Assembly: GCA_012934845.2 (NCBI GenBank) | Contig: WNNJ02001496.1 | Coordinates: 1-64,000, forward strand | Origin: Pomphorhynchus laevis | Lineage: Eukaryota; Acanthocephala; Palaeacanthocephala; Echinorhynchida; Pomphorhynchidae | Direction of reading: 5' to 3' | Length of the DNA: 64,000 nt | Shown: positions 1,697 through 57,739 of the stretch, piece by piece | Position numbering within the stretch: the stretch's first letter is position 1 | Layout: each line of letters opens with the position of its first letter | The notes under the pieces: model-generated | The model's input: only the letters and a program-made list of their open reading frames with translations | Told to the model about the DNA's origin: nothing | The model's database searches: none | Made by a program: the position numbers and the translations under genes

Positions 1697-1762
1697 AGAG
1701 TTTTATAATATTAAAGTCGTCTCAGAGTATGTTCTGGAAATCTTGGCTAATGTTACTGTGTT
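1697..1762 (+). CDS. E1: 66-nt A-type mini-exon, 22-residue repeat
   Basis: Bounded by CTGTTTAG and GTAAGT. After one base that completes a split codon the frame is open for 21 codons and leaves TT, so both flanking introns are phase 2. The peptide begins EFYNIKVV and ends EILANVTV; NVT is a glycosylation sequon. The 60 bases upstream (AATTCATAA...TTATCTGTTTAG) recur before the other A exons. Its B partner would be E2, now 5.7 kb away because nested LINEs inserted between them. The host gene is not recognised; repeat membership is clear from 23 relatives in the window. Confidence 0.85.
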
Positions 1763-2054
1763 GTAAGTACACGTGAATTTAATGTATTTATCTCATTTAT
1801 GTGAAAATTATTACATATATAAAAATACAATATACAAAATATCCGTAATTATCAAATTTTTAAAATTTAACAACTCAATATCTTTGAGTTCAAATTAGAT
1901 AAAATAATAATATGGAGAAATTTATTTATCCGTATAGCCTTTTGGTAAGGATTGAAATACAAACAAATATTGCATTCCGTAAACAGGCAATAAAAACTAT
2001 TTAACATCAGTTATATACATGTTAATACTTCAATAAGAATTTGCGTAGCTGTGC

Positions 2055-3264
2055 GGTTTATCAGGAACTGCGTAGTTTGTCAATCTCAGCTAATCATAAT
2101 TTAGACAAATGTGGGCAAGAAAAAACATGCAGTAAGGATTCACAAGGAACGCCACAGAATATACATTTGCATTAAAGGGAGACTGGATGAATTTGAATAT
2201 TAATAATGCAAAATTTATCGTGATAATCATGAATAGAAAGCCTCCATAGTAATGGTATCTTAATATAACATGCCTGCTGCCACCGAGAAAACGGTGGGTT
2301 TTTTTCGAAAACGCTTGAGTTTTTGGCAAGTTGAATATCGCGCAAACATAATTGGAGCACGTAGGAATACGAGAGAATATGGCGACCGATGTAGAGGAAC
2401 ATTTAACTGAAACACCCACAATGTGCTTAATAAATCTGTACTGACAGTTATCAATTTGAGCAAAGTTCGAAGAGGATAAGTCCGACCATATTACCGTTAA
2501 ACCGTATATCAAAATTGGCAAAAGCATTACACGAAAGTATTTAATTTCAACCACATAGCACCCAGATTACTTACATTACAGGTAGCCATAGTAATCTTCA
2601 ACAATATTTCCTCCACATGCGAGGTGAAGAACCATCTAGAATTCAACTGCAACCGAAGATATGTAATATTCCTGCAAAATTCAAGATGCTAAAAGTCTAA
2701 AATAAGCTTATCGTTTTTCTTTAATTGACCTCCACGCCTAAATTTTACAAACTTAGATTTGTACAAATATATTTTCAAATAATTGCCCATTAAGTATTTA
2801 GAAAATTCATCCAAAGCTAGTTATGATTCGTTCAGACTTGCAGACATAATAGCTAGGTCGTCCGCATACATAACCGTTGTTGCCGAGCTTCTACCACTAC
2901 AAATTATTCGAGGTAAATGTTCTACCTTCTATATGGGACTCAGATGGTCGCCCTGCATGACACCCTGTGTAGATGAGAAATATTCAGAATATTTCAGTTC
3001 GTCAAAAACTTTAAGGTAGTTTGGTTCTAAGATGTTCTTTATTAACTGTAGTAATCCACCATTTATGTAAAAATAATGAGGTAATTTGAAAAGCAGTAAT
3101 GTGTGATTAACAGAGTCAAAAACCTTAACAAAATCTATGAATATGGTATATAAAGGCTTTCTAACATAAAATGATTTATGTACTTCATTCCTAACAATAT
3201 TCAATGCATTTAAAGCTGAGCGGTTAGTACGAAAACCGAACTATTCATGTAGAAGCAAATATTC
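2055..3264 (-). mobile_element. LINE-A, 3' part: reverse transcriptase remnant
   Basis: The minus strand reads as the core and C-terminal half of a non-LTR retrotransposon reverse transcriptase. 3204-2929 holds YTIFIDFVKVFDSVNH (motif A region) and QGVMQGDHLSPI (motif B). MYADDLAIMSAS follows in another frame, with YADD at 2857-2868, and 2554-2400 holds LLPILIYGLTVIW. Stops and frameshifts break it up. It continues in the 5' direction at 6583 after the RTE insertion. A related sense scrap lies at 25.7-26.3 kb. Confidence 0.8.
3253..3264. repeat. Target-site duplication, left copy
   Basis: AAGCAAATATTC, matched exactly at 6583-6594. Removing the sequence between the copies rejoins LINE-A coding sequence. 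Confidence 0.8.
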
Positions 3265-6200
3265 AATAACAATTTCTAGACAAAAAAGCAAATAATAATA
3301 CACAAGATATTTTCTGTCAACCACTGGTCCGGGTGTCGGATCGTGGAGGCAGTGCACGAACCAAACTATTCCAGACATCGCGATTCTAAGCAACAGCCAA
3401 GAGTTCTCTTTTAGATAGCCCAAAGCGGTTTTCAGCCAGTTTCAAGATTTAATCTCTCCACCAGTATCGAGGTCTCTCTCGAGGTCTTTTTCCAGAGAGT
3501 CCAGCTTAGAAAATCTTCCCATATGTGGATCCCTAGACATCTTCAGAACGTGTTTTAGTCACCTCAACTGACTTTCTTAGATGTGGAGAAAAAGCGAATT
3601 TACTCTGAATGCATCCCGGATGATTAAATTCTTAACCTTATCTCTAAGGCTAAGACCGGTCACACAGCGAAGGAACCTCATTTCGGTCACCGGTATCCGA
3701 GATCTTATCCTTTCGGACATAACCCAAAGCTCAAGACCATAGGTTAAGATAGGAACGTAAATTGAGTAGTAAGCCGAAAGCTTTGTCCGAAGACAACTCT
3801 TGCTTCATAAAGACATACCTGTACAAAGAACGCATTGCTGCGTAAGAAGCACATCTCCCTGGTGTTTCTCCCCTCCTTCGAGAACAATATTCCGAAAGAC
3901 TTAAAATCCTTCTATGTAAACAAGGAACAGGAGAATGAAATCCTCCCGTCTCGTAATTTTGTCCATGTAAACACGGAACAAAAAGGAGACAAAGGACAAC
4001 CCTGACGAAGCCCAACGCCTACTAGAAGTGATTTAGACTTCCTACCTAGAACACGGGCACAGTTTATACTTTGTTCATTCAGAGAAGCCACAGCTACTTG
4101 AAGATAGTGTGGTACTCCATACTCTCTTAGTACCTCCCACAACCTCTCTCGCGGCACTGGATCGAACACTTTCACTAAATAAACAAATCACATGTAGATC
4201 AGTTGAGCGAACTTCAAAGAGCGTTCGAGGATAATTGAGAGAGTAAAGAGCTGATCGGTAGTTCCATGATCTAGATGAATGCCGCATTGTTCCTCTTGCA
4301 AAAATTCCTCAACTATAGGGCGTATCCTTAACTCAAGAATCTTAGCAAATAAATTATCAGTTTGGCTAACAAGAGTGATGACCCGATAATTGGAACACAC
4401 TATTCTGTAAGCTTTCTAAAAGATTCGTATGATCATCCCAGTTGGTCACTCACTAGGAACTTTGCCCGACTTTAATTCAACGTTGAATATCCGTGTGAGC
4501 TACTTCATGCACACAACTTCGAGAGCTTTAAATCTTTAGGTGGAGTATCATCTACTCCAGAAGACTTGTCGCTATGAAGCTTTTAACAATAGCAATGACA
4601 TATTCCAAAGATATAAACTCTCCAGTAAGTTTTAAAAGCTCTACCTCTGTAAGATAAGGGATATCCTCATCATTAATGAGACTTATAAAATGCTATTACT
4701 AACAACCAAGTATTTCAAAGTCAGTCAGCATAGATCTTTTCTTGTCATAGACAGTTTGAGGAGTTTTTTTGCTTTCCAACACGAAGTTTCTTGATTGTAC
4801 TCCGGAACATCCTCGAAGCCGACCTATAATCAAGTTCTACGTGCTCTCCAAACTTCTCCCAAACCGCTTTCTTTGCTTCGGTATCGAGCTAAAGCTCTTT
4901 TTACCTTTCGGTACTTGTCTACAGTAACCATTGATTTATCAGACAATGTTTCCGTACAAGACAGCTTATTTTGTTAAACGAAATCTCTAACTGTGTGTGT
5001 CCACTAAGTTGTTCAAGTATTTCCTCCGCGACAAGCACTAATGTCTTCGAGGCACAACTTTTCACAGCTGCTTTTCCAAGCGAGGATATGAACATCTTCC
5101 ATTCCTGATTAATGCCCTTCACCTCTTCGGGTAACTGAGAGAAGTCCTCCCGGATGTAGCAAAACGTTCTTTTACAAAATCATATGCTAGACGCTTCCAG
5201 CGCGCCTTTACACAACGTTTGGGCTTAACAGGCTTATCTAGCATCCGATCATGCCATTGAAGCTTACTAACTACAAAGTAGTGATCGGTTGACAGCTCAG
5301 CTACTCTCTTCAATGAGTATCCTTAACATAACATCGCAGATCAGATGAAACGATTACAAAATCGATCAATGATCTTTGACTTCAAGAATCCTGATGCCAT
5401 GTGCATCAATGAACCTCGTTATGTTCAAACATATTGTTGCTTATGCACAAATTGTTACAAGAACAGAAGTTTAATAACTCAACAACACTCGTATTCAGAT
5501 CACAGAGTTTGTTCCTCCCCACACGCCCTTATAAATGCTACTGTTGCAAACAACATGAGCATTGAAGTATCCAATAGAACATGGGAATCAATAACAGAAG
5601 AACTATCAAAACGCCTGAAGATCTTCCACGAAGGTTGCGTATTCCGAGATAATGTTGGGAGCACACGCACACATAACAGTTATCCTATTTCCCTCTTTTA
5701 CTAAAGCATCAAAGACGTCACTTTTGCGTTAACTGGATTAAACCTTTCTACTACGAACGACTATCGGGGACTTGTAAGTACCCCAACACTCGCCTCCCAT
5801 CGCTTTCTGTTGGTAACTCCTGAATAGTTTAAGGTTCAACCTTAATCCAAAAGTTTAGTCACAATTCCAGAATAGTGAAGAAAAGTCACTCTTTATCTTT
5901 TGACCAAAGCAAACCATTTCCCAACTAATTATGGTTCGTTTCCCACCATCAAGATGACATTCCACGTTCTTACAATATGACTAGTTTCCTTCGGATGTTT
6001 ATGGCTCTTTCGCTGTCTATGTATAACTGCTTGGTCACAGGGCACCCGACAATGAAAACTCTTACGTTCAGTGGTGAGTTGATAATTGTTCTTCGCACTT
6101 AATTTATATTTTTTAAATTTGTTGCTTGTCATTTTCATTGTCTGAGTTGGCTTGTTTAGCTATCTTCCGTTTCTGATATCTTTGATGATCCAACATCGTT

Positions 6201-6582
6201 ACTGTAAGGAGATAGGTCTCCGAGATTATCTCCTGCCTTTTCATCTATTGTCCAATCTACCGTTGTAGTCATCTGAGTGATTTTGCTTGTTCAACTATTT
6301 CCCGTTCCCGATATCCGTTGATGATGCAACGTCGCTACTGCAAGGACACGGCCTCGGTGATTCTCTTCCGCTTTTTCGTCCATTGTCCAATCCGTCGTTT
6401 AAGTCATCTGAGGGATCTGATATAGTTTATGAAAGGACTGTCCCTACGGCTGATGAAAGTAGGTCAATTATTTATCCGTTGATCGACGAATGTCGAACAT
6501 CCGTTGCCTGGGCCGCTCCACGAAGAGTTTAATTGATAATAGGCGACAGTTTAATACTTAATCGACTGGCGCCTAGCGTCCC
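3265..6582 (-). mobile_element. RTE-like LINE, 3.3 kb, nested in LINE-A
   Basis: Flanked by the 12-bp direct repeat AAGCAAATATTC (3253-3264 and 6583-6594), taken as the target-site duplication; the length fits full-size RTE elements. On the minus strand: start of an apurinic-type endonuclease (RTWNVILMVGNEP, about 5976-5932), CACAPN of the same domain near 5660, its end ELSTDHYFVVSKL near 5298-5260, then RT motifs NYRVITLV (4391), VPRERLWEVLREYGVP (near 4150), GVGLRQGCPLSP (near 4000) and the C-terminal ILTYGLELWVMSERIRSRI (near 3740). Many frameshifts and stops; a dead copy. Confidence 0.85.
6158..6420. repeat. Tandem duplication of about 130 bp in RTE 5' region
   Basis: Two diverged copies side by side: TTGTTTAGCTATCTTCCGTT... 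at 6155 and TTGTTCAACTATTTCCCGTT... at 6287, each running through GATGATCCAAC or GATGATGCAAC to GTCATCTGAG. They lie in the 5' untranslated part of the RTE element. The 81-residue ORF across the second copy is on the wrong strand and is not claimed as a gene. Confidence 0.7.
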
Positions 6583-6594
6583 AAGCAAATATTC
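6583..6594. repeat. Target-site duplication, right copy
   Basis: AAGCAAATATTC, partner of 3253-3264. Confidence 0.8.
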
Positions 6595-7205: not shown

Positions 7206-7492
7206 CAGATTAAATAATAATATATTTTATATTGATAAAACTTTTATGGTTAGATGCCTCAGAATTTACTTTTGAATAAAACCCTTTACAAAATACAATC
7301 GTTTATATTGCTATAATGTTAGCAACCTATAATTTTGAATTCATCATTACTTTTGTAATGATTGTTAACGATTCTATGTTATTACGTTGTGTAGTATATT
7401 TAATTTTATATATAAAATTCAAATAATAAAATTAAAATGGTCTATTTAAGCACTACCGATGTTTTAAAATTTATTCAATTTTTAATATTTAG

Positions 7493-7558
7493 AAAGTTCT
7501 ACGATACGTTCTTTGATACACACTCTTTAATGGTTATTTATGGTAATGTTAGTTATAT
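7493..7558 (+). CDS. E2: 66-nt B-type mini-exon
   Basis: Acceptor ATATTTAG, donor GTAAGT. Open only in the phase-2 frame: the other two forward frames hit TGA and TAA. The peptide begins KFYDTFFDTH and ends VIYGNVSY, one of the closest to the family consensus, with an NVS sequon. It ends AT, so the split codon is Ile or Met. It lies just 3' of the LINE block that separates it from E1. Confidence 0.87.
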
Positions 7559-9709: not shown

Positions 9710-9775
9710 AGAGTTTCACGATGCAAGTTTCAAATCAAACACGTCAATAGATATATCTAAGGATTGTAAAGATTT
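9710..9775 (+). CDS. E3: 66-nt A-type mini-exon
   Basis: Acceptor TTTACTTAG, donor GTAAGT. The phase-2 frame encodes a peptide beginning EFHDASFKSN and ending DISKDCKD. The first half matches the family (EFHD..., NTS sequon). The second half lacks the usual IYGNV motif and carries a rare cysteine. A 65-residue continuous ORF runs into it from upstream, but the shared acceptor and frame favour the 66-nt exon. Confidence 0.78.
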
Positions 9776-11432: not shown

Positions 11433-11477
11433 AAAGTTTTTCGATTCAATCATTGAAGCTGACGCTTCACTTGAACT
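11433..11477 (+). CDS. E4: 45-nt short mini-exon
   Basis: Acceptor ATATTTAG, donor GTAAGT, phase 2 at both ends, 15 codons in total. The peptide KFFDSIIEADASLE shares the K-F-x-D start and S-L core of the B exons but lacks seven codons, mainly the IYGNV part. It ends CT (split Leu). It is paralogous to E5; the two lie in a tandem intron duplication of about 1.75 kb period (the upstream text at 11150-11290 recurs at 12875-13010). Confidence 0.78.
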
Positions 11478-13180: not shown

Positions 13181-13225
13181 ATGGATTTACGATTTAATCA
13201 GTGAAACTGACGCCTTAATTGAATT
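13181..13225 (+). CDS. E5: 45-nt short mini-exon, paralogue of E4
   Basis: Acceptor ATGTTTAG, donor GTAAGT, phase 2 at both ends. The peptide WIYDLISETDALIE aligns with E4 (KFFDSIIEADASLE) along its length. The two share a non-standard length while differing at many residues, so the 45-nt form looks like a stable subtype and not a one-off deletion. It ends TT (split Leu). Confidence 0.77.
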
Positions 13226-13387
13226 GTAAGTAGTAACGAAGTTGAAATTAATCATTTATTAAATTTTTAAAAAAATTTTATGCTTAAATTCAAGTTTATT
13301 GTTCATTTTTCGACTCCACTTGTCTCTCATTCTCGATTGCATTTTATACTGACGACATATTTAGCATATCGTAAATCAAAAATTGAA

Positions 13388-13592
13388 TACCTTATTCGAT
13401 ACAGTATATAAAAATGTATATACCTTATATATAATATACCTTATTCAATACAGTATATAAAAATGTATATACCTTATATATAATATACCATATTCAATAC
13501 AGTATATAAAAATGTATATACCTTATATATAATATACCTTATTCAATACAGTATATAAAAATGTATATACCTTATATATAATATATATATAC
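13388..13592. repeat. Minisatellite, about 53-bp unit, four copies
   Basis: The unit TACCTTATTCAATACAGTAT...followed by AAAAATGTATATACC and a TATATAATA run repeats nearly perfectly four times. It sits 160 bp downstream of E5 inside the intron and ends in a TA-rich run. Confidence 0.85.
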
Positions 13593-13806
13593 TTTTTTAT
13601 ATATGACAGATGAATAATTGATAGCTGCCGAATTTGATTGCTTTTTTGAGTGATCTTTATATACAATGAATATATATTTTGTTTTCCTCACCTTTTTTAT
13701 TTTATATCTCACAGGCAAATATTTATTTAGTTTAAAAAACCGTTTTTATAATTATCTTCGAATATAAACAATCGCAATGAAAGATGTATAAATAAAGTTA
13801 ATTTAG

Positions 13807-13863
13807 ATACTCTGCACCAGTAATTTCAACTTTGGAGAATATACAAATGCGTCCTAAATCAAT
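13807..13863 (+). CDS. E6: probable 57-nt divergent mini-exon
   Basis: Found by its signals: AATTTAG acceptor and GTAAGT donor, 57 nt apart. The phase-2 frame is open for 18 codons, beginning YSAPVISTLE and ending IQMRPKS, and leaves AT. Sequence similarity to the other exons is weak. Length divisible by three, matching phase and array position support it, but chance cannot be excluded. The acceptor has little pyrimidine tract. Confidence 0.5.
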
Positions 13864-14157: not shown

Positions 14158-16720
14158 ACCCCGAGCCCGTGCTTTCCTGTATGAACGGATCAGCGTAGCC
14201 GTCCAGCTTGGAAATGCAGCATGCATAATGGATACCATGAGCGGAGGAGGGTCGTCAATGCTGCTTCCGTGATGGGTAAAAGCGTGATATTAAAGTATCT
14301 ATGTCGGCCCGGCATGAAGTTATCAAGACAGCACGAGTCTCAGGGAAATGGCAATTCTCACCGCCTCGTCCTCTAACCGGGTTCCCAGGGCCGAAATTGG
14401 TAGCGCATTGAGCCAAAAACCTAACTCATGTGTTGAGACAGCGATCGATCGCGCCTTGGAGGCCTCATACTGCAAACTTGAAGATATTCTACTGTGTATT
14501 TGTCTGATGAGGAGTAAATCCTAGACGGCCCGCTTGGTATCATTTTCAGGTGCTAAGATTTTCCCTGTTTTGGATAGTCATTCCTGTAGTCCAATACAAT
14601 AGTGCCGGCATAGTGGTTGGGAACTCAATCCCAAAAGGCACTCAACGTTGACATTGAAAGTACAATAAGACGATAACAAGGCGGCTAGTGCAACATCAAT
14701 TGTGTTACGAATCCCGATACCCCTATATAATACAGGAAGTGCGGCTTAGGACCATGCTTTCTCTATTAAGTGGCAGTTAAGAATATGTGCAAGATATCTC
14801 TTCAGCATTGATTCCAGCTTTTATACTCATCAGGGTGTTCGAAATATGAAACTGGGCGTAGTTTGTAAAGGAGCTTGGGCATATATAAGCAGTTTTTGAA
14901 TAGGAACAATTCTTCGTGGACAATAAGCTAAAATGAACGCTGACCTAGAAACTCCAATTGTGGCAAGATCATTTTTACTTCCTCTACACAATTAGCTGCT
15001 AAAACGCAGCTTCCTAAACGACAGCTTGTCGATAGAAATAAGATATATACCTGGGCAAATAAATTGAAATCGTTCGCAATCATCTGACGTTGTTCCTCAT
15101 CATGGACATTAATTAGCAACAATTGGCACTTTCGCGGATTCAAGTAGAGACCAAGTTTCAAAGAGTCATTAACTATTTGAGTTAGATCAGACAACGTTTT
15201 AAATGGGTTACCACCGATGGTTGCGACATCCCAATACCAGGCGTTAAAGTGCGCCTTAAGTGAGTGGACTAGTGGGTTGACGGCTAGAGCAAAACCTATG
15301 GGCCTGAGGGGGTCTCCTTGTTGCAATCCTGACTCTGACCATATAATTTGGTCTTCATACACGAGAAACGTTTTAGATCCGTAAGCCATGTAAAAGTATG
15401 GCAATGCTTCAGGGCATGATTCTTCACGGCATCGAGTAAGGCTAAGCGGCTGACAGTGTTTAAAGAATTTTTGAAGTCGCATTTTACCATAGCAAAAAGC
15501 ACCGAAATGTTTTCAATTAGCATTCTTAAGGAATGAACTATGGTTTCCGCACCACAAGGAGTGCAGCAACCTAATTAAACTGGACGAATATGACCATTGA
15601 CCTTGTTTGCCACTCGTCTGGAGAGTACCTTCGCGGCAACGCGTCGAATGGTCGTGCCGATCGCAATGGGACGAACCCCACCTCCCTTTTACTCCAGTGC
15701 ACATAAGGATGCCGAGAATAGGAAATGGATAACTTCAGGGGATAACCTACCACCAACTATTTGTCCAATGTCAATGCTAGTGCATTGAGAAGAATGTGGC
15801 CGCCTTCACCGGCTGCGAAGGAAACCAGATTTTTTAAATGTTTGGGACGAAGTCCGTTTAATCCGTGATCAGAGCCGCTTGGAAAGGAATCGATTGCGCT
15901 CCGACGTTCGGAAATTATACATGGATTAGGGCGATCATCTTAATCAGACGATGGAGGAATGGGAACTTTTTCGTTCGCGGATGGGTGTAAGGCTTGGAGC
16001 GCGGCAAGAGTTTCTTCTTTGTTTGTAGCAAACGATTTCTCTGACGAAAGTAGTCTAACAGCACCACGAATATATCCGTCAGCCAATTTCGCTGAAACTC
16101 GGCAGCCTAACCTTAAAGGATTTCGGGATTTCCCATCATCTGTTTCATGGGAATGCGCAGTGCCCGTGATGAATTACAAAAACATTTTGGGGAAGTGGAC
16201 AAGACAATCTTTGATGGCAGACGTGAGGGACTGGTCAGATGCGTCGGTCGTATTCATTACCAAACGTGGAAAAGCGAATAATCTCTGTCAATCCATCACA
16301 TTACCGATTTCAACACAGTCCGTGAGTAAGCCGGCGTACTACTGGGTTACGAGAAATCTAGCACCCTTCGGAATTCGCCTTACAATTTTGACGTGTTTTA
16401 ATTTTAGCATGCCAATAATGGATAAACCGAGACGATTCAATGGTGTCGCGTCTTCTGTGAGATCTGAATGAACCGATCCATTATTAGTAAGGTCAAGTAT
16501 ATGATGAGAGGTAGCCGGCATCCTCCCTGATCCTAAGCACCGCAGGGAGATAGGGCCGTGCTTCCTAAGATAACCAGAACCATTAAGTCGAAAGGTTCAA
16601 AGCAAACGACACAAGTGGCAGGCCGTTCCATCGTTCTTATTGTTTGTTTTAAAAGGCATGGATTGATTGCTTGCGGTACTCATCAGATACCAATTATGGT
16701 CGATCAATATATAGGCATAG
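14158..16720 (-). mobile_element. LINE-B remnant, antisense, catalytic box lost
   Basis: A block clearly richer in G+C than the introns. On the minus strand, 15482-14928 holds SGLQQGDPLRPIGFALAVNP (RT motif B), then AWYWDVATIGGNP where the family normally has Y-x-D-D, then LGLYLNPRKCQLLLIN. The catalytic aspartate pair is therefore gone. Both sides are full of stops and shifts; ends are approximate and no target-site duplication was found. The 170-codon ORF at 15959-16471 on the plus strand is antisense to the element and not claimed. Confidence 0.75.
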
Positions 16721-17610: not shown

Positions 17611-17676
17611 GAAGTTTTACAATACCACCTTTGAAGCAAATTCTTCACTATATATTAATGGCCACATACCTTATAT
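17611..17676 (+). CDS. E7: 66-nt B-type mini-exon
   Basis: Acceptor ATGTTTAG, donor GTAAGT. The peptide begins KFYNTTFEAN and ends INGHIPY, with NTT and NSS sequons. It begins with G, so a preceding TT gives Leu and a preceding AT gives Met. It opens a three-exon block (E7-E9) whose duplicate is E10-E12, and differs from its paralogue E10 at 13 of 66 positions by eye. Confidence 0.85.
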
Positions 17677-19131: not shown

Positions 19132-19197
19132 AGAATTTCACGATTCAACTGTCAAGTCACAGTTTTTGATGGATATCCATAATAATATTCGTTCGAT
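19132..19197 (+). CDS. E8: 66-nt mini-exon, A-class start, AT end
   Basis: Acceptor TTGTTTAG, donor GTAAGT; only the phase-2 frame is open. The peptide begins EFHDSTVKSQ and ends DIHNNIRS. The first 9 codons are identical to E11 and the upstream intron is nearly identical over about 1.3 kb, but the second half and downstream intron differ sharply, placing a homology breakpoint inside the exon. Confidence 0.85.
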
Positions 19198-19993: not shown

Positions 19994-20059
19994 AAAGTTG
20001 TACGGAACTATCTTTGAATTTAACTCTTCACTTGTCTTTAATGGCAACGTTAGACAAAT
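19994..20059 (+). CDS. E9: 66-nt B-type mini-exon, identical to E12
   Basis: Acceptor ATATTTAG, donor GTAAGT. The peptide begins KLYGTIFEFN and ends VFNGNVRQ, with an NSS sequon. The exon and flanks (19838-20221) are identical by eye to 24238-24621, so this is a very recent copy. Leu replaces the usual Phe at the second residue. Confidence 0.87.
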
Positions 20060-22368: not shown

Positions 22369-22434
22369 GGACCTTTACAACATTACTTTTGAAGCAAACT
22401 CTTCAATATATATTAAGGGCCAAATATCTAATAT
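22369..22434 (+). CDS. E10: 66-nt B-type mini-exon
   Basis: The acceptor is TTAAG instead of TTTAG; donor GTAAGT. The peptide begins DLYNITFEAN and ends IKGQISN, with NIT and NSS sequons. Paralogue of E7 with many residue changes while intron sequence further downstream is nearly identical. Frame and length are intact, so the weaker acceptor may be tolerated or may lower use. Confidence 0.82.
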
Positions 22435-23962: not shown

Positions 23963-24028
23963 AGAATTTCACGATTCAACTGTCAAGTCACATATTTTTC
24001 TGAATATCGTTGATAATATTTATTCGGT
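23963..24028 (+). CDS. E11: 66-nt mini-exon, half shared with E8
   Basis: Acceptor TTGTTTAG, donor GTAAGT. The peptide begins EFHDSTVKSH and ends NIVDNIYS and the exon ends GT, giving a Val split codon, the only such case here. Its 5' half and upstream intron match E8; its 3' half and downstream intron do not. The reading frame survives the switch. Confidence 0.85.
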
Positions 24029-24393: not shown

Positions 24394-24459
24394 AAAGTTG
24401 TACGGAACTATCTTTGAATTTAACTCTTCACTTGTCTTTAATGGCAACGTTAGACAAAT
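24394..24459 (+). CDS. E12: 66-nt B-type mini-exon, identical to E9
   Basis: The same 66 bases, acceptor and donor as E9, 4,400 bp downstream. Closes the second copy of the three-exon block. Peptide begins KLYGTIFEFN and ends VFNGNVRQ. Identity could reflect recent duplication or gene conversion. Confidence 0.87.
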
Positions 24460-27473: not shown

Positions 27474-27539
27474 AGAATTTCAAAGAACTAAGATTAACTC
27501 AAACTCGGTATTGGATATTTTTGCTGTTGTGGCTCGGTT
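27474..27539 (+). CDS. E13: 66-nt A-type mini-exon
   Basis: Acceptor ATCTGTTTAG, donor GTAAGT. The peptide begins EFQRTKINSN and ends DIFAVVAR; the GNV motif is replaced by AVV. It ends TT (split Leu). Pairs with E14 458 bp later. The conserved intron block (26840-27290) lies just upstream, as before E21. Confidence 0.85.
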
Positions 27540-27996: not shown

Positions 27997-28062
27997 ATAT
28001 TTTAAAGATACAAAATTTGTGTCAAACTCTTCATTGTCTATCAACGGGAATGTTCCAAATAT
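27997..28062 (+). CDS. E14: 66-nt B-type mini-exon
   Basis: Acceptor TTTTTTTTAG, the best pyrimidine tract of the array, donor GTAAGT. The peptide begins YFKDTKFVSN and ends SINGNVPN, with an NSS sequon. It ends AT (split Ile). B partner of E13. Confidence 0.87.
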
Positions 28063-28886: not shown

Positions 28887-29273
28887 GTCAGTAAGATGAA
28901 CTATAACACGCCGTTTCGGCTGCCTCTGTGACATTGTGAAAATGCATTTCCGACATCTAGCTTAAATTGTTGGTGGCGTTAGCTCTTAAGTCCAACAATT
29001 TGCAATGCAGACCATCATAAACAACCAGAGGATCAAACTTTCGGATGCTTGACTGTAAGAAACCGAGATTGAGTGGATCAATTCTTTCTATATAATCATA
29101 AGAGTTTCGTTTGAATCGGTATTGCAGACCATCATAGTAATATGATGGTCTGCATTGCAAATTGTTGGACTTAAGAGCTAACGCCACCAACAATTTAAGC
29201 TAGATGTCGGAAATGCATTTTCACAATGTCACAGAGGCAGCCGAAACGGCGTGTGATAGTTCATCTTACTGAC
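28887..29273. repeat. Long inverted repeat, 133-bp arms
   Basis: 28887-29019 is the reverse complement, nearly perfectly, of 29141-29273; the spacer is 29020-29140. Within the spacer the text ATCATAAGAGTTTCGTTTGA (29093) repeats 28739. The same short peptide start, MSQRQPKRRVIVHLTD, can be read outward from both arms on opposite strands, which only reflects the inversion. Confidence 0.85.
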
Positions 29274-29298
29274 GAGAGTTTGCAGATATATATGCTCG

Positions 29299-29301
<3 letters not shown>

Positions 29302-29382
<81 letters not shown>
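29302..29382. repeat. (TA)n microsatellite, about 40 units
   Basis: Uninterrupted TA dinucleotides next to the 28887-29273 inverted repeat. The plus-strand ORF across it is only an (IY)n run. Confidence 0.95.
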
Positions 29383-29386
<4 letters not shown>

Positions 29387-29539
29387 ACGGCATATTCTAA
29401 TCGGTGTGACTCAGGATTGATAAAATCAATTCTTTCCATATATAAATGTAGATATTAAATATATCTACATTACCATATAAATTATACATTTCCATATAAA
29501 TTATACATTTCCATATATAAATGTAGATTTGGCTCAGTT

Positions 29540-29540
<1 letters not shown>

Positions 29541-29610
<70 letters not shown>
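29541..29610. repeat. (TA)n microsatellite
   Basis: Second long TA run, 160 bp beyond the first. Confidence 0.95.
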
Positions 29611-29611
<1 letters not shown>

Positions 29612-30649
29612 TGATCGGTTTTTGCTTTACTAAATCAAATGAAATTTTTCTTAATATTACTTGACAAAATTGTCGTATTTTGAAAGTGCTTTATTGATAA
29701 CTGTAAGATGTAAACCATAGAGAAGAAATATAAGTGGTATGTATAATATTCGTTCAACAAAATAATAAAATATTGTTTAATATAACGGCTAGTTGCGAAT
29801 TCAAAAATGATTTTGATCAATCTATTCTACACCTCACTTCAATTAGTTTTTTGAAACTTTGAGTAGTTCTATTATTTGACTGATGAATCAGTGTTTGAAA
29901 CATTCTATAGGGTTACCTTTGTTATATTAAAATGATGCTAGATGTTGAAATGCTGACTGAGCGCCTTCTTGCAAATACAATGTTTAGAAATCTATCCTTC
30001 GCATTGTAAATCAGAAATCCTAGAAAGTCTTGAGCATTTATATCGAAACGTAATGATTTTAATTATTGATTGCTTTGGTCTTTCAACTAAGTTGTAAAGA
30101 CTTGGTTCTACCGTCATACTGTTTTTCTCACATCTTTATTCCATCAAAATTTTGCTTGGACGTTGTATCGTTAAACTTAGCAAAATCAGCCACTTCTCGA
30201 AGCTTTCATTATTGCAGTTCTCAAGTGAAGCCAACCGTTTTTTGCTGTTCTTTAATGGATATTATGCTTTTTTCAAAGAATCTGATTGTTTGTAGAATAC
30301 GACCATTTCCCATTGTTTTCACTGACTAAGATGGATTTTGAGACCTAAACAGTGAAATGTCTAAGCAGCACTAGGCACCTTTATTGTACCAAAATAATTT
30401 GTTGTTGAAACCAATGTATCAGAGACATAACTAGATGCATTGCTTATGCAAGATTACTATTCGATTGCGTTTTTATACAGATCGCTTACGTACTCCCACC
30501 AGCGTACATCATTCATCAAAAGAGAAATTTACGGCTGACAAGTCGTTTCGTCATTATTTACGTTTTATCTTAACTGTAAAATTTAGGCTAAAAACTGATC
30601 AAAGTTCAATTACGTGACTTTAAAGGTTGCTTATTAAATGGAATTTAAA

Positions 30650-34410: not shown

Positions 34411-34476
34411 AGAATTTTACAATACTGGCATATTGCATAAGTCTTTATTGAACATTTATGGTACTGTTTCTAATTT
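34411..34476 (+). CDS. E15: 66-nt A-type mini-exon
   Basis: Acceptor ATCTGTTTAG, donor GTAAGT. The peptide begins EFYNTGILHK and ends NIYGTVSN. No sequon. It ends TT. Separated from E14 by palindromes and an antisense LINE; pairs with E16 285 bp later. Confidence 0.87.
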
Positions 34477-34761: not shown

Positions 34762-34827
34762 AAAATTCTCTTCGACATCATTTAAATCAAACTTATCATT
34801 AAACATTTGTGATAACGTCCAAAATAT
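34762..34827 (+). CDS. E16: 66-nt B-type mini-exon
   Basis: Acceptor TGTGTTTAG, donor GTAAGT. The peptide begins KFSSTSFKSN and ends NICDNVQN, with an NLS sequon and one Cys. It is closest to E22 and E24, the B exons of the later A-B pairs, supporting amplification as a two-exon unit. Confidence 0.87.
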
Positions 34828-38989: not shown

Positions 38990-39795
38990 TAATAGAATAG
39001 CTGAATGTCAGGCGATAAACTAAAACAATAAAAGTTGTGAAACTAGTCTTATCAATAAAATACGAGAATGATAAGCATCATCCATGTTTGGTAAACGAAA
39101 CGTTGGGAATTACTAATTAGTAATTCATTCACTTATAAAGTAATAATTGAAAATAAATTATATTTTATCAGTCACTAATAAAACGTCATGTTTAAAATAA
39201 AATGATAATTGACATTGAATTTTAACTATTACCATCACATGTGATCGCTAAAACACTTAGTATTGTTTCTCGTCGGAGTTGTTGTTTCGCCTTACAAATA
39301 GCGAGCATAATATTCACATGACAGGGATTCGTTACTACTTTTTTAGTGATCCACAAATTTATTTAAACCATTTCGTTAAGTCATAGTTAAAAGAAATTAG
39401 ATAATATCTAATTTTAAGAATATAATTGAAATTTTAAGAATTGCAACAATATGTAATGATATTGGCTTTTTTCAAAATCATTTAAATAATTTAATAGATA
39501 CGTATTTTAAACTAGGTTGCTGTAAAAATAACATCAAGCAGAAAATAGTAAAATATATGAATCAACACAATAATATAAAGAATAAATTTAAACTCTTAAG
39601 TGGCAAATTTTTATGGATGGATAATAAATAATATACTTTGTATTAGAATAAGATACTAGATAGTTATTTCAGAGGAAATACATCATTAGCATGTATTTGG
39701 CCCTGCTGCTATGTTGGGTAGAGGAATTAAGGGCCGAAACCTGATAGCATAGCAGTTCCTCCTGATGACATCTAATCCTTATTCTGATACAACGT
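38990..39795 (+). mobile_element. Internally deleted copy of the PLE at 46.9 kb
   Basis: Left part (about 39025-39410, from AAACAATAAAAGTTGTGAAA) matches 46935-47300; right part (about 39428-39795) matches 48487-48855, including the last 60 codons and stop of the RT ORF. About 1.2 kb holding the RT core is missing between them. Divergence between the copies is small. It cannot encode an RT and may have been mobilised in trans. Confidence 0.85.
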
Positions 39796-40995: not shown

Positions 40996-41061
40996 CGATT
41001 TTTCTCATAATGAGATTTGGTCGCTGTCGAGTTTGGATATTTTTGGAAACGTTAAAGAGTT
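40996..41061 (+). CDS. E17: 66-nt A-type mini-exon, D-F subtype
   Basis: Acceptor TGTGTTTAG, donor GTAAGT. The peptide begins DFSHNEIWSL and ends DIFGNVKE. It begins with C, so a preceding TT would give Phe and AT would give Ile. Close paralogue of E20. No B exon follows before the next A exon (E18). Confidence 0.86.
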
Positions 41062-42590: not shown

Positions 42591-42656
42591 AAAGTTTCGC
42601 GATAATTACATCTTGAACAATTTGTTGTTGAATATTTATGGCAATGTTAATCTGTT
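42591..42656 (+). CDS. E18: 66-nt A-type mini-exon with K start
   Basis: Acceptor ATCTGTTTAG, donor GTAAGT. The peptide begins KFRDNYILNN and ends NIYGNVNL. Its TT end and upstream intron motif are A-type although the first residue is B-like. The conserved intron block lies upstream at about 42215-42400. Pairs with E19. Confidence 0.87.
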
Positions 42657-43523: not shown

Positions 43524-43589
43524 CAAATTTATAAATACAATATTTAAATCAGACTTATACTTGTCGGTTTACGGTAACGTCTCAATTAT
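43524..43589 (+). CDS. E19: 66-nt B-type mini-exon
   Basis: Acceptor TGTGTTTAG, donor GTAAGT. The peptide begins KFINTIFKSD and ends SVYGNVSI, with an NVS sequon. It begins C and ends AT. B partner of E18. Confidence 0.87.
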
Positions 43590-45941: not shown

Positions 45942-46007
45942 CGATTTTACTCATAATAAGATTTGGGCATGGTCGGGTTTGGATATTTTCGGAAACATTA
46001 AAGAGTT
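45942..46007 (+). CDS. E20: 66-nt A-type mini-exon, paralogue of E17
   Basis: Acceptor TGTGTTTAG, donor GTAAGT. The peptide begins DFTHNKIWAW and ends DIFGNIKE. Introns on both sides also match those of E17. No B exon is seen before E21. A perfect fold-back element lies about 90 bp downstream in the donor-side intron. Confidence 0.86.
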
Positions 46008-46929: not shown

Positions 46930-48858
46930 TATAAAACAATAAAAGTTGTGAAAATAGTCTTATCAATAAAATACGAGAATGATAAGCATCATCCATGACG
47001 AAACTTTGGGTATTAGTAATTCATTTACTTGTTAAGTAATAATTAATACTAAATTATATTTTATACGTTACTTATAAAATGATATGTTTAAAAATAAAAT
47101 GATAATTGGCATTGAATTTTAACTATATCGATCACATGTGATCGATAAAACATTTAGTATTCTTTTCATTTGAAGTTGTAGTTGCGCCTTACAAATAGCG
47201 ATCATAATGTTAACATAACAGGGACCCGTTACTACTTAGTGATCCACAAATTTATTTAACTCATTTCGTTAAGTCACAATTTAAAGAAATTAGATAATAC
47301 CATTTATTAACCTTTAAAAGGAAAGATAAAATTAATAAAGATATGTAAAAAGAACTTACTAAATCAAAGCATAACTATATAATAACAACTATTGATAAAG
47401 CTAGTAATAACTTTGTCTTCATATGCAAAAATCTTTATTATGATATACTAATGAAAGAGGTTAATTCTAATGATTTAAATGTAAATCAGCATATGAACGC
47501 AGTGAGTTGAGTTTAGAAACAATTATTACAAGTCACTGTTCTATAATGGATAAAAAGGGTATAAAGGTTGAATTAGATAATAAAACTATACCTATATTAT
47601 ATTGGAATCCAAAATTACATAAAAATCCAATAAAACCTAGGTTCATATGTAGTGCGTTTAAATGTACATTAAAACCACTTTCTGTTTATATGAATAAAAT
47701 GCTTAAAGTAATTAAAGCACATTTTAAAAAATATTGCAAGGTAATCGAAATTAATACTGGTATAAAACACTATTTCAGTATTAATTCTACAAAAGAATTT
47801 TTAGAACAGACAAAAGGAATAAATTTTCAAAATATAAATACATACGATTTTAGTACGCTTTATACAAATCTAGATTTAGTAGATATTAAAGAAGCGTTAG
47901 TAAAATTAATTAATCTTATATTCGGAAAAAGATATACATATATATGTTATAATAATTATAACGCCTATCTAACAAAAATTAAACCATCAAATAAATATAA
48001 ATATATGGATAAAATTGAATTAATAGAATCCCTAAATATTTTGATAAATCAAAATTATTTAAAAGTAGGGACATCTATATTTAGACAAGTAAAAGGTGTT
48101 CCAATGGGTGGTAATAGTAGCCCAATTATAGCTGACTTGTTTTTAAGCTTTATAGAATATGAATTTGTTCATAACTGTGTAAAAACTAAATCTAAACAAT
48201 ATAAATATATGAAATATATGTTTCGATACATTGATGATATATGTGTATTTAATTCTAATAATTTTTATTCAATTAGTGAGCACATTTATCCAGAAAGCCT
48301 TATTCTTAACAAAACCAATATTAATGATAAAGAAGGTGTATATCTAGATATGAACATTAAATTAACATTAACTAAAACTACTATTAATTTATATCGTAAA
48401 GATGACATATTTAAATTTACAAGAAACATATTTTTGCATGAGCATTCATGCATACCATATAATATAAAATATAATACATTAAATAATGAAATTTTAAGAA
48501 TTGCAACAATTTGTAATGATATTGGCTTTCTTAAAAATCATTTAAATAATTTAATAGATACATATTTTAAACTAGGTTACTATAAAAATAACATCAAGCA
48601 GAAAATAGTAAAATATATAAATCAACACAATAATATAAAGAATAAATTTAAACTCTTAAGTGGCAAATTTTTATGGATGGATAATAAATAATATACTTTG
48701 CATTAGAATAAGATACTAGATAGTTATTTCAGAGGAAATACATCATTAGCATGTATTTGGCCCCGCTGCTATGTTGGGTAGAGGAGTTAGGGGCCGAAAC
48801 CTGATAGCAAAGCAGTTCCTATCGATGACCTCTAATTCTTATTCTGATACAACGTCTG
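46930..48858 (+). mobile_element. PLE-like retroelement with RT, no nuclease seen
   Basis: Bounds come from comparison with the deleted copy at 39 kb. It contains a damaged N-terminal RT part (about 47330-47507), the long RT ORF (47507-48691) and a structured 3' tail (48700-48858) with complementary segments such as GGCCCC with GGGGCC and TAGAGG with CCTCTA. No GIY-YIG domain follows the RT. Ends resemble fragments at 37.1 kb and at the window edge (63.95 kb). Confidence 0.75.
47507..48691 (+). CDS. Penelope-like reverse transcriptase (5'-frameshifted)
   Basis: A 394-codon ORF from TTG. PLE-type RT landmarks in order: WNPKLHKNPIKPRF (33-46), motif A YDFSTLYTN (113-121, catalytic Asp 114), motif B VKGVPMGGNSSPIIADLF (195-212), motif C RYIDDI (240-245; YIDD at 48227-48238) and GVYLDMNI (277-284). 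Upstream, in another frame, 47345-47507 reads TTIDKASNNFVFICKN, the region where PLE RTs usually carry D-K-x-x-N; a TGA at 47508-47510 and a shift separate them. The RT would copy its own RNA into chromosomal DNA. The core is intact but the N-terminus is broken, so activity is doubtful. Codon use is extremely AT-rich. Confidence 0.85.
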   Translation: MSLETIITSHCSIMDKKGIKVELDNKTIPILYWNPKLHKNPIKPRFICSAFKCTLKPLSVYMNKMLKVIKAHFKKYCKVIEINTGIKHYFSINSTKEFLEQTKGINFQNINTYDFSTLYTNLDLVDIKEALVKLINLIFGKRYTYICYNNYNAYLTKIKPSNKYKYMDKIELIESLNILINQNYLKVGTSIFRQVKGVPMGGNSSPIIADLFLSFIEYEFVHNCVKTKSKQYKYMKYMFRYIDDICVFNSNNFYSISEHIYPESLILNKTNINDKEGVYLDMNIKLTLTKTTINLYRKDDIFKFTRNIFLHEHSCIPYNIKYNTLNNEILRIATICNDIGFLKNHLNNLIDTYFKLGYYKNNIKQKIVKYINQHNNIKNKFKLLSGKFLWMDNK

Positions 48859-48869
48859 TTATTTATTAG

Positions 48870-50724: not shown

Positions 50725-50790
50725 AGAATTTTACAATACTGAGATGTTGAAGATGAGACCATTGGAAATTTATAGTAATGCGACTCAATT
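50725..50790 (+). CDS. E21: 66-nt A-type mini-exon
   Basis: Acceptor CTGTCTAG (C in place of T), donor GTAAGT. The peptide begins EFYNTEMLKM and ends EIYSNATQ, with an NAT sequon. It ends TT. Preceded by a full copy of the conserved intron block (50135-50510). Pairs with E22. Confidence 0.86.
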
Positions 50791-51270: not shown

Positions 51271-51336
51271 AAAATTCATCAAGACGCAATTGAACTCAAA
51301 ATTGTCTGTGCTTATTTATGATAACGTTTCAAATAT
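51271..51336 (+). CDS. E22: 66-nt B-type mini-exon
   Basis: Acceptor TGTGTTTAG, donor GTAAGT. The peptide begins KFIKTQLNSK and ends LIYDNVSN, with an NVS sequon. It ends AT. B partner of E21, and similar to E16 and E24. Confidence 0.87.
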
Positions 51337-53950: not shown

Positions 53951-53952
53951 AT

Positions 53953-54922
53953 ATATAGTTATTACAAGAACAACGAAGCAGAAATTATATTTTTTGATAA
54001 AAAAATTCTATATTTCGATAGCTCCTGCTATCATCATCTGGATTACAATAAAATGTTTCACAATTTTTCTTTTTTCCCCGTGTTTACAACATTTATACAG
54101 AAATACAAGCATCGATGTGCCCCGCATTTCTACTTGAAAGAATTACGCCATCTTTAACAAAAATGCAATTGTTTATAAAATACCTTGTAAAGAATGCGAA
54201 CATGTATATGTTGGTCAAACCGTAAAGGTTTGGTTAAGCGTATTAAACAACATAATTATAATGTACGTCAAGGGACCGATTCTAGTGCTGTTGCTCAGCA
54301 TTTTGTGAGTTAGAATCATTCCGTTGATTTTGAAAATGCATCTATTTTATTATTTAAAAGTAACTTGTTATCTCGCATTATTCAAAAAGCGTATTTTATT
54401 AAAAAAGAACATAATTTAATGCTTAATAATAAATCCAATCACAACCTTAAATTAAATTTTAATTAATTATTCCAATATTACATTATTTTAATTTTTTCAA
54501 TTCGTTTGTTTTCTTCTAATTGCGTTATTATTTTGTTTTGGTTTAGATTAAATTATAATTTAGTACCCTACCTTAACATTATTTTTATTATTAAATTCGT
54601 ATTTTTTTCACTTAAGTTATGATCTTAAATTTTATTTTGTTTTATTATTCTGTTTATTTTTCTTTCTTTTTGTTGTTTTTAAAATATGTGTAAAAATTTT
54701 AGTGTATGATTGTTTTGTTTCTGAGTATTTTCTTTTTCATTTAAGTAGAAATGAGGGGCCCATCAATGCTTGTATTTTTGTATAAATATTGCAAACACGA
54801 GGAAAAATTGTGAAACATTTTATTGTAATCCTGATGATGATAGCAAAGCTATCGAAATATATAATTTTTTTATCAAATAAAGGATAATTTCTGCTTCTTT
54901 GATCCTGTAGTTACTATATATA
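53953..54922 (+). mobile_element. GIY-YIG PLE remnant between inverted ends
   Basis: Inverted arms of about 180 bp (53953-54138 and 54742-54922) share GAAGCAGAAATTATA..., TGTTTCACAATTTTT and the CTATC...GATAG motif. Between them the plus strand reads IYKIPCKECEHVYVGQT (54171-54222), the GIY-YIG start, then after a frameshift RIKQHNYNVRQGTDSSAVAQ and LLSRIIQKAYFIKKEHNL. That is the C-terminal endonuclease of canonical Penelope-like elements, which nicks target DNA. The RT part is absent, giving a terminal, dead fragment of a different lineage from the 46.9-kb element. Confidence 0.8.
54825..54862 (+). ncRNA. Hammerhead-ribozyme-like core, PLE end
   Basis: CTGATGA (54831-54837) is followed by a 6-bp stem GATAGC (54839-54844) / GCTATC (54848-54853) with loop AAA, then GAAA (54854-54857): the conserved core order of hammerhead ribozymes, which are known in PLE ends. 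One extra T lies before the stem and I could not place stem III and the cleavage site with confidence. The opposite arm has CAGATGA, breaking the core. Confidence 0.45.
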
Positions 54923-57286
54923 ACTAAAGTGTTCATGACTTAAATCTTATAAATACGATATAAATGTTATATAAATTATATAACATTATAATTAATGAAA
55001 TAATTAATTAATTAATTAATTAAACGAACAATATATAAAAATACTGTTCGTTTGCAAATTTTTATATTAATGTTGATTAAATTTATTATTTTGACGACAT
55101 TTTGCTATGCACAGTGAAAGAGTTTAGTTTCTATATGTCAATATATTCACACCGAATAATTATAATAATCAAAACAATTTAGATTTGAAATTCTTATAAT
55201 ACTGATATAATAATCAAAATTCTGATATTATAGCCAAATCAAAGTGTTTTGACTAAATGTGTTATACATTTAAGCTACAACCTCTTCTCAATTATTTTCA
55301 TTTATGTGTTGATGATTTTTACTCACCCATTTTTTAAATTCATACAAAAATGGAAATTTAAATTTTAAAATGGTGTGTCTAAGGTTTTATGTATCTGTGG
55401 TTTTTGAGCAAACCACATCATTAGTCAAACCACAATATAAAAAATTACAGTAATTCTGATGATTTAAAAATGAGGCTCAAATAATTATCAAATTTGTTTA
55501 ATCAAGAGGATATGCTCATGGAGAAATTTTGCGAGAATTTCGAAAACTTGAAACACTAAAACGAAAACTCCTCTTAAAACCAAAATTAGTTACTGACATA
55601 GTTTATGTTGTTCAAGTTTTTTTTGGACGAAGTTGCGTAATGGAATCAGCAACATGGTACGCACCTCGGCAAATTTGTAAAACAAAGGTTCAGCAATATT
55701 TGAATTTATCTTGAAGCTAGAAAATGCATAGTTTTTCGGATCAAATGCGACAGTAAAGACGTTTTGATCAGTTCTAGATTAATACATTCATCATAACAAA
55801 ATATTCAATATAAACATTCAATATAAAACATTAATTATATAATCCGTGGACTCGGTTAACTGATCTGATTTGTTTTAAATCGTCATCATCGTCATCAATG
55901 TTATCAATATTAATAATAATAATCTAAATACATAAAATTGTCAGTACGAAGCATAAAAAATCTGCTAATTTTGTACAAGTCAAACTATTGTTTACACCTG
56001 GCTCAAAATGTTGCCATTAGTTAATTTTTTTATTTGTAATAAGCTTTATAGTGTTTCAAAAGTAAGTCATTTTATGTTTGCCATTTATCTCGTTTAACCT
56101 TTTGTCTATTTGTATTTGTCATGCAGATTTTAGATTTTTATTATTGACAAAAATTATTATACCCAGTGAGTTTTCAGCAAACCACATCATCAGTCTATCA
56201 AAATAAATTGATTTGAAAATATTATTTGTTTAATAATTTTTATTCTAATGTTGATTAAATTTCCTATTTTGACGACATTGTGCTGTGCAAACTGAAAGAG
56301 TTCAGTTTCTATTTGTCAATATTAACACCGGTTTTTTTTAATAATCAAAACAATTCAGTTTTGAAATGCTTATAATAATGATATAATAATTAAAACTCTG
56401 ATATTATAATTAAATCAAAGTGGTTTGACTGAACATGTTATTAATTCAAGCTGCAACCTCTTCATTTTATCATTTATGTTGGGCTGATTTGATATCACCC
56501 ATTTTTTATAAACATACAAAAATGGAAATTTTAATTTTAAAATAGTGTGTCTAATTATAATTTAATAATATAATTATTAATAAATAATATAATTAATATT
56601 TTGTAAATTATTAATGATCAAATTTTTAATACTTGAAACTTCCATACTTGAAAATTATATATCGATTGATAATCATTTTACATAGAGAAAAATATAATAT
56701 TTACGTGTAAATGATCACGCTATAATGTCAGGTCGAGAAATAATCTTTTCCCTAATGTGAACAGAGTTCTGAAGTTTTATAAAACTGTTTGTATTTGTAT
56801 TTGTATTTTTATGGTAACCTAGTTTTAAATATTTATCCATTGAATTATTTCTATAAAATATAATAATAATTAATAATATTAATTAATAATATTAATAATA
56901 ATAAATGAATTCAGCACTTCTTACATATGGCCCGGGTCGTTGTTGAATATTTTTGCTGATGTTTTATTATTTTTTATATAATCATTTAAATGAATGAAAA
57001 TATAATATTTGCGTGTAAATGAACACGCTCCTATCTTAAATGGAGAAATAGCGTCAGAGTTCTGACAACATTACAGTTCCTTGTAAGTTCCTTGTAATAT
57101 TATCTGAATTTTATTATTTTAATGACACATTTGATTTATAGCTTTGTAAAATTATCTTTATATTAAATAATTTATTAAATATTTTCCGCCAAAAGAATAT
57201 CAACATAACCTACAATTAATTTAATAATTATTTATTAATTAACTTTTCTCTATAACTAATAAACGAAATATAATTTATCTGTTTAG
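54923..57286 (+). other. Intron upstream of E23
   Basis: Made of intron repeats: pieces of the conserved block (55265-55385, 56445-56800, 57000-57080) around the 0.9-kb duplication. No mini-exon signals found in it. Confidence 0.5.
55433..56330 (+). repeat. 0.9-kb duplication, copy 2
   Basis: Partner of 44439-45336, about 10,994 bp downstream. Copies diverge abruptly at both edges (AATATTAACACCG then different sequence at the right). Confidence 0.85.
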
Positions 57287-57352
57287 AGAGTTTGTCGATA
57301 CTGAGATCATGTCGAATTCGTCAATAGATATATTTGGTAACGCTACTGCGTT
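57287..57352 (+). CDS. E23: 66-nt A-type mini-exon
   Basis: Acceptor ATCTGTTTAG, donor GTAAGT; the other two forward frames are closed. The peptide begins EFVDTEIMSN and ends DIFGNATA, with NSS and NAT sequons. It ends TT. Pairs with E24. Confidence 0.87.
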
Positions 57353-57673
57353 GTAAGTGGCCGAGAATGTTTTTGGCTTAAAAATTTGTTTTATAGATCT
57401 GTAGTCGTTTATTATCACAATCATATTATCATTATTTATTATCACATTCTTCTTTTTATAATCACAAATGTTTTACAAAATAGTTACAGCATTATTATAT
57501 ACCATCAATTTAATAATTTACATTAATATAATATTTTTGTATTATTTTATTATATTGTTTTATTATTTTGTATTAAACATTTCTAAACAATTTGGCATCT
57601 TTAATACATCAAATGTTTTGTATTTCAAAACATTTTTTTAAATTGTGATAACGATGATAGATTTTGTGTTTAG

Positions 57674-57739
57674 AAAGTTCTCTAGAACAAAATTAAAGTC
57701 AGACTTATCATTGACTATTTACGATAACATCACAAATAT
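57674..57739 (+). CDS. E24: 66-nt B-type mini-exon, last seen
   Basis: Acceptor TGTGTTTAG, donor GTAAGT; the other two forward frames are closed. The peptide begins KFSRTKLKSD and ends TIYDNITN, with an NIT sequon. It still has a strong donor, so at least one more exon should lie beyond the window. A LINE inserted about 200 bp downstream. Confidence 0.87.

Follow-up and report, generated by a model that had tools for sequence, protein, structure and literature searches.

A Series of 24 Homologous Mini-Exons in Pomphorhynchus laevis: Probable Coil Exons of One Very Long Gene for a Predicted Beta-Helix Protein

Introduction

What can be encoded by 24 short, mutually similar blocks that are scattered over 56 kb of an animal genome? 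The question is raised by a stretch of DNA from the acanthocephalan Pomphorhynchus laevis, namely bases 1–64,000 of contig WNNJ02001496.1 (C489; 89,715 nt), which is referred to here as the window. A preliminary description of this stretch had proposed an array of homologous, frame-keeping mini-exons on its plus strand, from 1697 to 57739. The present analysis indicates that the blocks are probably successive internal exons within a single, very long gene, the product of which would be a right-handed parallel beta-helix with one 22-residue coil for each 66-nt exon. We infer that all of the exons are spliced in order.

An Array of Frame-Keeping Exons

The window was scanned for blocks bordered by splice acceptors and donors, and all 24 proposed blocks were recovered on the plus strand. 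Their lengths had been given correctly: 21 have 66 nt, two have 45 nt (at 11433 and 13181), and one has 57 nt (at 13807). Each is followed by a GTAAGT donor, while the acceptor, described as TTTAG-type, is exactly TTTAG in 21 of the 24 and CTTAG, TTAAG, and TCTAG at 9710, 22369, and 50725, respectively. A common reading frame had been proposed too, and frame 1 is indeed open in all 21 of the 66-nt blocks, compared with none for frame 0 and nine for frame 2. Only 24% of all 63-nt windows on the plus strand are open. All lengths are multiples of three, and every exon consists of 1 nt, whole codons, and 2 nt, so that it is in phase 2 on both sides (24/24). The notion of homologous mini-exons belonging to a multi-exon gene is supported, and exons of this kind are linked, with the phase unchanged, in NCBI gene models of this genome.

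Shuffled sequence does not produce such a series. A search for open 66-nt blocks with a [CT]TNAG acceptor and a GTAAGT donor returned 20 on the plus strand of the window (the expression misses exon 50725, with its TCTAG acceptor, hence 20 rather than 21) and none on the minus strand, while 100 dinucleotide shuffles of the window gave a mean of 0.03 and a maximum of 1. With open in-frame blocks of 40–70 nt, the counts were 23 and 0, against a shuffled mean of 0.34 and a maximum of 4. Over the whole contig, open blocks of 20–250 nt with [TC]TNAG and GTAAGT numbered 54 on the plus strand in all phases; 25 of these were in phase (1,2), comprising 24 exons of the series (23 in the window and 67266) and one longer nested reading of exon 7493. 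Four such blocks, one of them in phase (1,2), were found on the minus strand of the contig. Three further 66-nt candidates on the plus strand of the window (7880, 13798, and 54239) lack the repeat pattern and were excluded from the series. A sequence-only profile built from 35 exons with their flanks scores the whole 66-nt exons at 44–73 bits, all on the strand of the gene; its training set includes every one of them except 24394, which is itself identical to 19994. The 45-nt exon at 11433, which lies outside the training set, reaches 26 bits.

The encoded coil has the 22-residue consensus [K/E]-F-Y-[N/D]-T-x-[F/I]-x-S-N-S-S-L-x-I-[Y/F]-G-N-V-x-x, together with a split codon. Two types of exon, often paired, can be distinguished: type A begins with [E/D/K]-F and mostly ends in TT, and type B mostly begins with K-F and mostly ends in AT. 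Every exon of this gene ends in NT, and the codon split in phase 2 therefore has T in its middle position, which places F, L, I, M, or V where two coils meet. The same is true of nearly all exons seen elsewhere in the genome; one exception is a coil exon on contig C1333 (86085–86020, one of nine mapped there), which ends in AA and gives Lys at the junction. With such a junction codon, any order of coils is permissible without a frame break or a stop. They could thus be rearranged by duplication, recombination, or exon skipping with the frame preserved.

Extent of the Proposed Gene and Related Gene Models

The series does not end with the window. Five more 66-nt exons follow on the same strand of the contig, at 66413, 67266, 68686, 68939 (donor GTATGT), and 71440, the last ending at 71505, and 2.9 kb further on there is a terminal exon (74399–74453), which ends in a stop codon. 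From the first exon found to this tail, the joined reading gives 638 residues with no earlier stop. The introns range from 187 bp to 8.7 kb. This continuation and the terminal exon had been overlooked in the preliminary description, as had the A and B types and a decayed copy at 56906–56971.

Such exons are also chained in the NCBI model P0001 (GJ496_003879), in which 212 of 259 residues match contig C1333 exactly in ten same-phase blocks. Its coil exons lie at 95.5, 92.8, 91.9, 86.6, 86.1, 81.4, 78.5, 76.8, and 75.0 kb (66 nt long in seven cases, 63 and 69 nt in the other two), and its tail exon, which the terminal exon of the C489 series resembles, lies at 69.0 kb. The first exon annotated for this model (MFLIVVCELD) is followed by a GTATGT donor and is perhaps spurious. 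Three other proteins, P0002, P0004, and P0005, were assigned to contigs C467, C2954, and C560. In P0005 the elements follow the same order as in the window: a pair of full coils, then a short coil, a linker that ends in RPKS, and another full coil. The two were compared as proteins, with 49% identity over 113 columns and a 16-column gap opposite the last part of exon 13181 and the first part of 13807. Because this run of coils and linker recurs in P0005, the exons of 45 and 57 nt are no anomalies.

All exons of the window are on the plus strand. The series opens with a type A exon at 1697..1762 (EFYNIKVVSEYVLEILANVTV; 62 bits in the profile), a type B exon at 7493..7558 (KFYDTFFDTHSLMVIYGNVSY; 62.7 bits), and another type A exon at 9710..9775 (EFHDASFKSNTSIDISKDCKD; 50.4 bits). 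The short coil exon at 11433..11477 (KFFDSIIEADASLE) aligns with NFYDLIIEADVLLKL of P0005. In the second short coil exon, at 13181..13225 (WIYDLISETDALIE), IYDLISETD aligns with IYARVNSSD, and in the 57-nt exon at 13807..13863 (YSAPVISTLENIQMRPKS), ENIQMRPKS aligns with DNKRRRPKS of the same protein. These are followed by 17611..17676 (type B, KFYNTTFEANSSLYINGHIPY; 60.1 bits), 19132..19197 (type A, EFHDSTVKSQFLMDIHNNIRS), and 19994..20059 (type B, KLYGTIFEFNSSLVFNGNVRQ), and then by 22369..22434 (type B, DLYNITFEANSSIYIKGQISN; 44.3 bits), 23963..24028 (type A, EFHDSTVKSHIFLNIVDNIYS), and 24394..24459, the type B exon identical to 19994–20059. A and B exons then stand side by side at 27474..27539 (EFQRTKINSNSVLDIFAVVAR) and 27997..28062 (YFKDTKFVSNSSLSINGNVPN) and at 34411..34476 (EFYNTGILHKSLLNIYGTVSN) and 34762..34827 (KFSSTSFKSNLSLNICDNVQN). 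Two A exons, at 40996..41061 (DFSHNEIWSLSSLDIFGNVKE) and 42591..42656 (KFRDNYILNNLLLNIYGNVNL), precede a B exon at 43524..43589 (KFINTIFKSDLYLSVYGNVSI), and two more, at 45942..46007 (DFTHNKIWAWSGLDIFGNIKE) and 50725..50790 (EFYNTEMLKMRPLEIYSNATQ), precede the B exon at 51271..51336 (KFIKTQLNSKLSVLIYDNVSN). The decayed copy is of type A (EFSTSYIWPGSLLNIFADVLL) and has neither acceptor nor donor. The last exons in the window are 57287..57352 (type A, EFVDTEIMSNSSIDIFGNATA; 72.1 bits) and 57674..57739 (type B, KFSRTKLKSDLSLTIYDNITN).

Predicted Fold

Two AlphaFold2 models of family proteins, both of middling confidence, are all-beta solenoids. Their best structural matches by Z score are right-handed parallel beta-helices, with an identity of 4–14% in the rows listed. 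Three-stranded coils of approximately 22 residues, stacked on one another as in this fold, are present in the predicted models. If the models are right, each 66-nt exon would correspond to one 22-residue coil.

An Exon Family across the Genome

The genome searched comprises 249.4 Mb in 3242 contigs; as published, the P. laevis genome has 260 Mb in 4021 contigs with a GC content of 32.9%, and the assembly used here is perhaps a later or filtered version of it. A 34-letter pattern covering the exon end and the donor had 207 matches, compared with four for the reversed control; the coil exons therefore form a family. Some contigs are perhaps alternative haplotypes, so the number of matches may exceed the number of loci; on the other hand, of the 35 exons in the training set, the pattern recovers only 25. 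It includes neither the acceptor nor the 38 nt at the start of the exon. With a narrower pattern, there were 40 matches on 22 contigs and none for the control. Twenty matches on eight other contigs were picked from those listed, and 18 proved to be open 66-nt phase-2 exons preceded by an AG acceptor (one peptide is shared by a pair of them); one of the remaining matches has 63 nt, and one lacks such a reading. A related 3' terminal exon is present in two members, the C489 series and P0001.

On contig C1405, the coil exons are arranged in three-exon units, nine of which, 3.9 kb long, are 99.2–99.9% identical. Fifteen exon-A sites were found, mostly spaced by 3.94 or 6.2 kb, and 51 exons score in the first 90 kb, with a matrix that includes their peptides. 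This array is close to a macrosatellite that carries exons.

A joined peptide of eight exons, searched against 5.8 billion sequences, returned two proteins at E ≤ 10, both hypothetical and from P. laevis (217 candidates scored), and a second joined peptide, from other contigs, returned three more, all from P. laevis (2744 candidates scored). No publication on this exon family was found by title or abstract opening in the open-licence literature, and the body of the published article on the P. laevis genome contains no word beginning with exon or intron.

Probable Conversion and Constraint

The regions at 17.7–20.2 and 22.5–24.6 kb of the window form a mosaic, in which tracts of 97–100% identity lie beside tracts of approximately 40–65%, with some intermediate and part unaligned. 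One identical tract stops inside the exon pair 19132/23963: the first nine residues are shared, and eight of the other twelve differ. Such a mosaic would reflect gene conversion or unequal exchange, creating new coils. Diversifying selection was considered for the copies 17611/22369 and 19132/23963 and was rejected, as the differences in their flanks and the abrupt stop of the tract of identity favour conversion.

The divergence at codon positions 1, 2, and 3 is 0.436, 0.381, and 0.453 among 18 type A exons and 0.438, 0.281, and 0.514 among 17 type B exons, while that of the flanking introns of this set is 0.52–0.62. Divergence is thus lowest at position 2 in both types, clearly so in B and weakly in A, and the B coils, at least, are constrained as protein.

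Mobile and repetitive sequences also occur in the window. Retroelement open reading frames (ORFs) lie among the exons at 14928–15512 (−), 47474–48691 (+), 58393–58980 (−), and 59880–60473 (−), as judged from Pfam RVT_1 (two of three matches below the cut-off) and Exo_endo_phos; the ORF at 47474 looks Penelope-like from a motif. Dispersed repeats between exons, at 39427/48487 and 44469/55464, are 97–98% identical in 300-nt samples, and a 49-nt tandem repeat and long AT microsatellites occupy 13338–13631 and 29262–29641. Four other ORFs of the window matched no Pfam family, and nothing in the window matched Rfam at gathering scores. Elsewhere in the genome, a Pfam search for COX1 turned up broken copies only; the pieces L030, L031, and L032 resemble mitochondrial COX1, contain internal TGA, TAG, and TAA, and are probably nuclear copies.

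Weighing the Interpretation

Several observations weigh against one long beta-helix gene. A convincing start exon was found neither in the contig stretches examined nor in the 5' regions of P0004 (including its C2305 copy) and P0001. Nor did any family member show a signal peptide, the 5' ends not being covered; a secreted product is therefore only conjectural. P0001 departs from the genomic series at residues 79–93 (K-FYDTQ in the genome exon, Q-FYDTQ in the model, which has its join at 92/93) and after 253, and its residues 79–92, 222–235, and 254–259 were not located in the C1333 stretches compared. In P0003 and P0004, coil exons are joined to sequence of an unrelated kind (up to residue ~290 from the first in P0003, ~140–255 in P0004). 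These two are probably chimeric, mispredicted models, and the family may therefore be under-annotated. A 602-residue joined query had no match at E up to 10 among 8000 candidates scored; this search was insensitive, because it missed P0003 and P0004, which were of eligible length. As for the fold, the AlphaFold2 input consisted of four sequences only, and Foldseek against the PDB gave no match at E < 0.001 (best 0.12), with leucine-rich repeat (LRR) proteins among the matches. A PDB sequence search with P0001 had no match at E up to 10. No Pfam beta-helix family was above its cut-off for P0001–P0005, the best being PF20585 on P0004 (16.6 bits against a cut-off of 24.3). The Pfam hints are all sub-threshold and mutually conflicting, and P0001, P0002, P0003, and P0005 have no beta-helix hint. 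The low divergence at codon position 2 is clear only in type B and is a weak contrast in type A, and an excess of glycosylation sequons in the exon peptides, considered below, is partly due to one conserved N-S-S motif in 21 peptides that are not independent.

Could the array instead consist of small tandem genes, in which every A+B (or D+A+B) unit forms a gene of its own? The recurrence of A/B pairs with shared flanks and the repeated 3.9-kb unit of C1405 are in line with such an arrangement. However, the C489 sense strand offers seven hydrophobic phase-2 candidates for a start exon, of which five read through into coil exons and the remaining two (35682 and 54261) are not repeated in successive units. 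Together with the single tail exon found on that contig, 2.9 kb beyond the last coil exon, and the stringing together of nine mapped coil exons in P0001, this makes the arrangement rather improbable. The chaining in P0001, though possibly that of an ab initio model, also argues against mutually exclusive, Dscam-like exons, of which one or few would enter each transcript. Exons of equal length, equal phase, and diverged sequence would fit that scheme, and partial skipping is compatible with the present data, but a lone 22-residue coil is no domain, the stack predicts a coherent solenoid, and no constant exon pair was found bordering the array. We give this scheme only a small chance. Finally, the exons might be relics without a working product, part of a non-coding satellite or carried by retroelements, given the reverse-transcriptase ORFs between them, the near-macrosatellite of C1405, and decayed copies such as 56906, one without an acceptor on C2740, and one in the C1405 unit. 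The open frame of all 66-nt exons in the window, the low divergence at codon position 2, and the two intact splice sites in all but one copy of the C489 series leave this reading very improbable.

A further alternative concerns the fold rather than the gene. The coils might fold as LRRs, like those of the exon arrays of Tetrahymena, instead of a beta-helix. The strand motif of LRRs is LxxLxLxxNxL, and V-x-x-L-x-F-x-x-T-x-F in the coils is compatible with it; LRR_12 of Pfam reaches E 0.17 on P0001, below the cut-off, and LRR chains are frequent among the Foldseek matches. We consider this fold unlikely, and one long gene for a predicted beta-helix is the reading retained below.

Comparison with Known Systems

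The preliminary description had named aphid bicycle genes and schistosome micro-exon genes (MEGs) as structural comparisons only, and they remain just that. The closest precedent, which it overlooked, is the arrays of 90-bp phase-2 LRR exons in Tetrahymena. The Tetrahymena LRR genes contain tandem 90-bp exon arrays with an extreme phase-2 bias on both sides; their expansion is recurrent and is ascribed to ectopic recombination, and retroelements lie nearby (PMC6564038). The P. laevis array shares with them a tandem layout with one fixed exon length, phase 2 on both sides, a solenoid repeat, recurrent expansion, and nearby retroelements. It differs in having exons of 66 rather than 90 bp (21/24) and a predicted beta-helix rather than LRRs, and in coming from an animal rather than a ciliate. 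The introns differ too, being ~120–260 bp in two Tetrahymena species (PMC6564038) against the far wider range given above. General protein searches, none of them made by Tetrahymena name, returned only P. laevis.

Like the P. laevis series, bicycle genes have many small internal exons, nearly all in phase 2, and form a large, fast-changing family; they occur in aphids, phylloxerids, and coccids, and some of their paralogs also lack the CYC motif (PMC9168663). The P. laevis series is not from an insect, its exons are near-constant in length, and it has no CYC motif pattern (two Cys in the 441 residues of the 21 peptides from 66-nt window exons). Bicycle genes have an N-terminal signal sequence; none was found in the P. 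laevis series, the 5' ends of which were not covered.

The exons of MEGs are often shorter than the 45–66 nt seen here. MEGs likewise have most of their known coding region in small symmetrical exons and belong to helminth parasites, but they are apparently restricted to platyhelminths and all have a signal peptide (PMC4350168). The present exons are acanthocephalan, their coils are mutually homologous, and, with the same limit on 5' coverage, a signal peptide was not found.

Pectate lyases, PL6 lyases, tailspikes, and the Awp1 adhesin belong to the class of right-handed parallel beta-helices. They share with the P. laevis proteins the predicted fold and ~22 residues per coil, and they provide the best Z matches. 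The low identity in the rows listed, the lack of any Pfam match above the cut-off, and the presence of one exon per coil set the P. laevis family apart from them; no catalytic site was identified in it, none having been sought.

Proposed Product and Significance

The beta-helix fold is common in adhesins and carbohydrate-binding proteins. N-glycosylation sequons are about twice as frequent in the window exon peptides as the shuffled mean. Given the predicted fold, the few cysteines, and this excess, the product would be a long extracellular rod or adhesin that is probably N-glycosylated, and an extracellular location is slightly favoured. The addition, loss, or conversion of coil exons would alter the length and the face of the rod. 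It is a doubtful yet conceivable extension that the arrays serve as a modular generator of variable beta-helix proteins, by which the worm varies the length and the exposed faces of a secreted surface molecule meeting its fish host, through germline duplication, conversion, and perhaps exon skipping.

If the interpretation is true, the array is an animal counterpart of the constant-length phase-2 exon arrays of Tetrahymena, with a different predicted fold. There would be a one-to-one correspondence among exon, intron phase, junction codon, and structural repeat. Any genome can be checked computationally for the junction-codon rule. A neglected parasite phylum would then be seen to possess a large and poorly annotated gene family.

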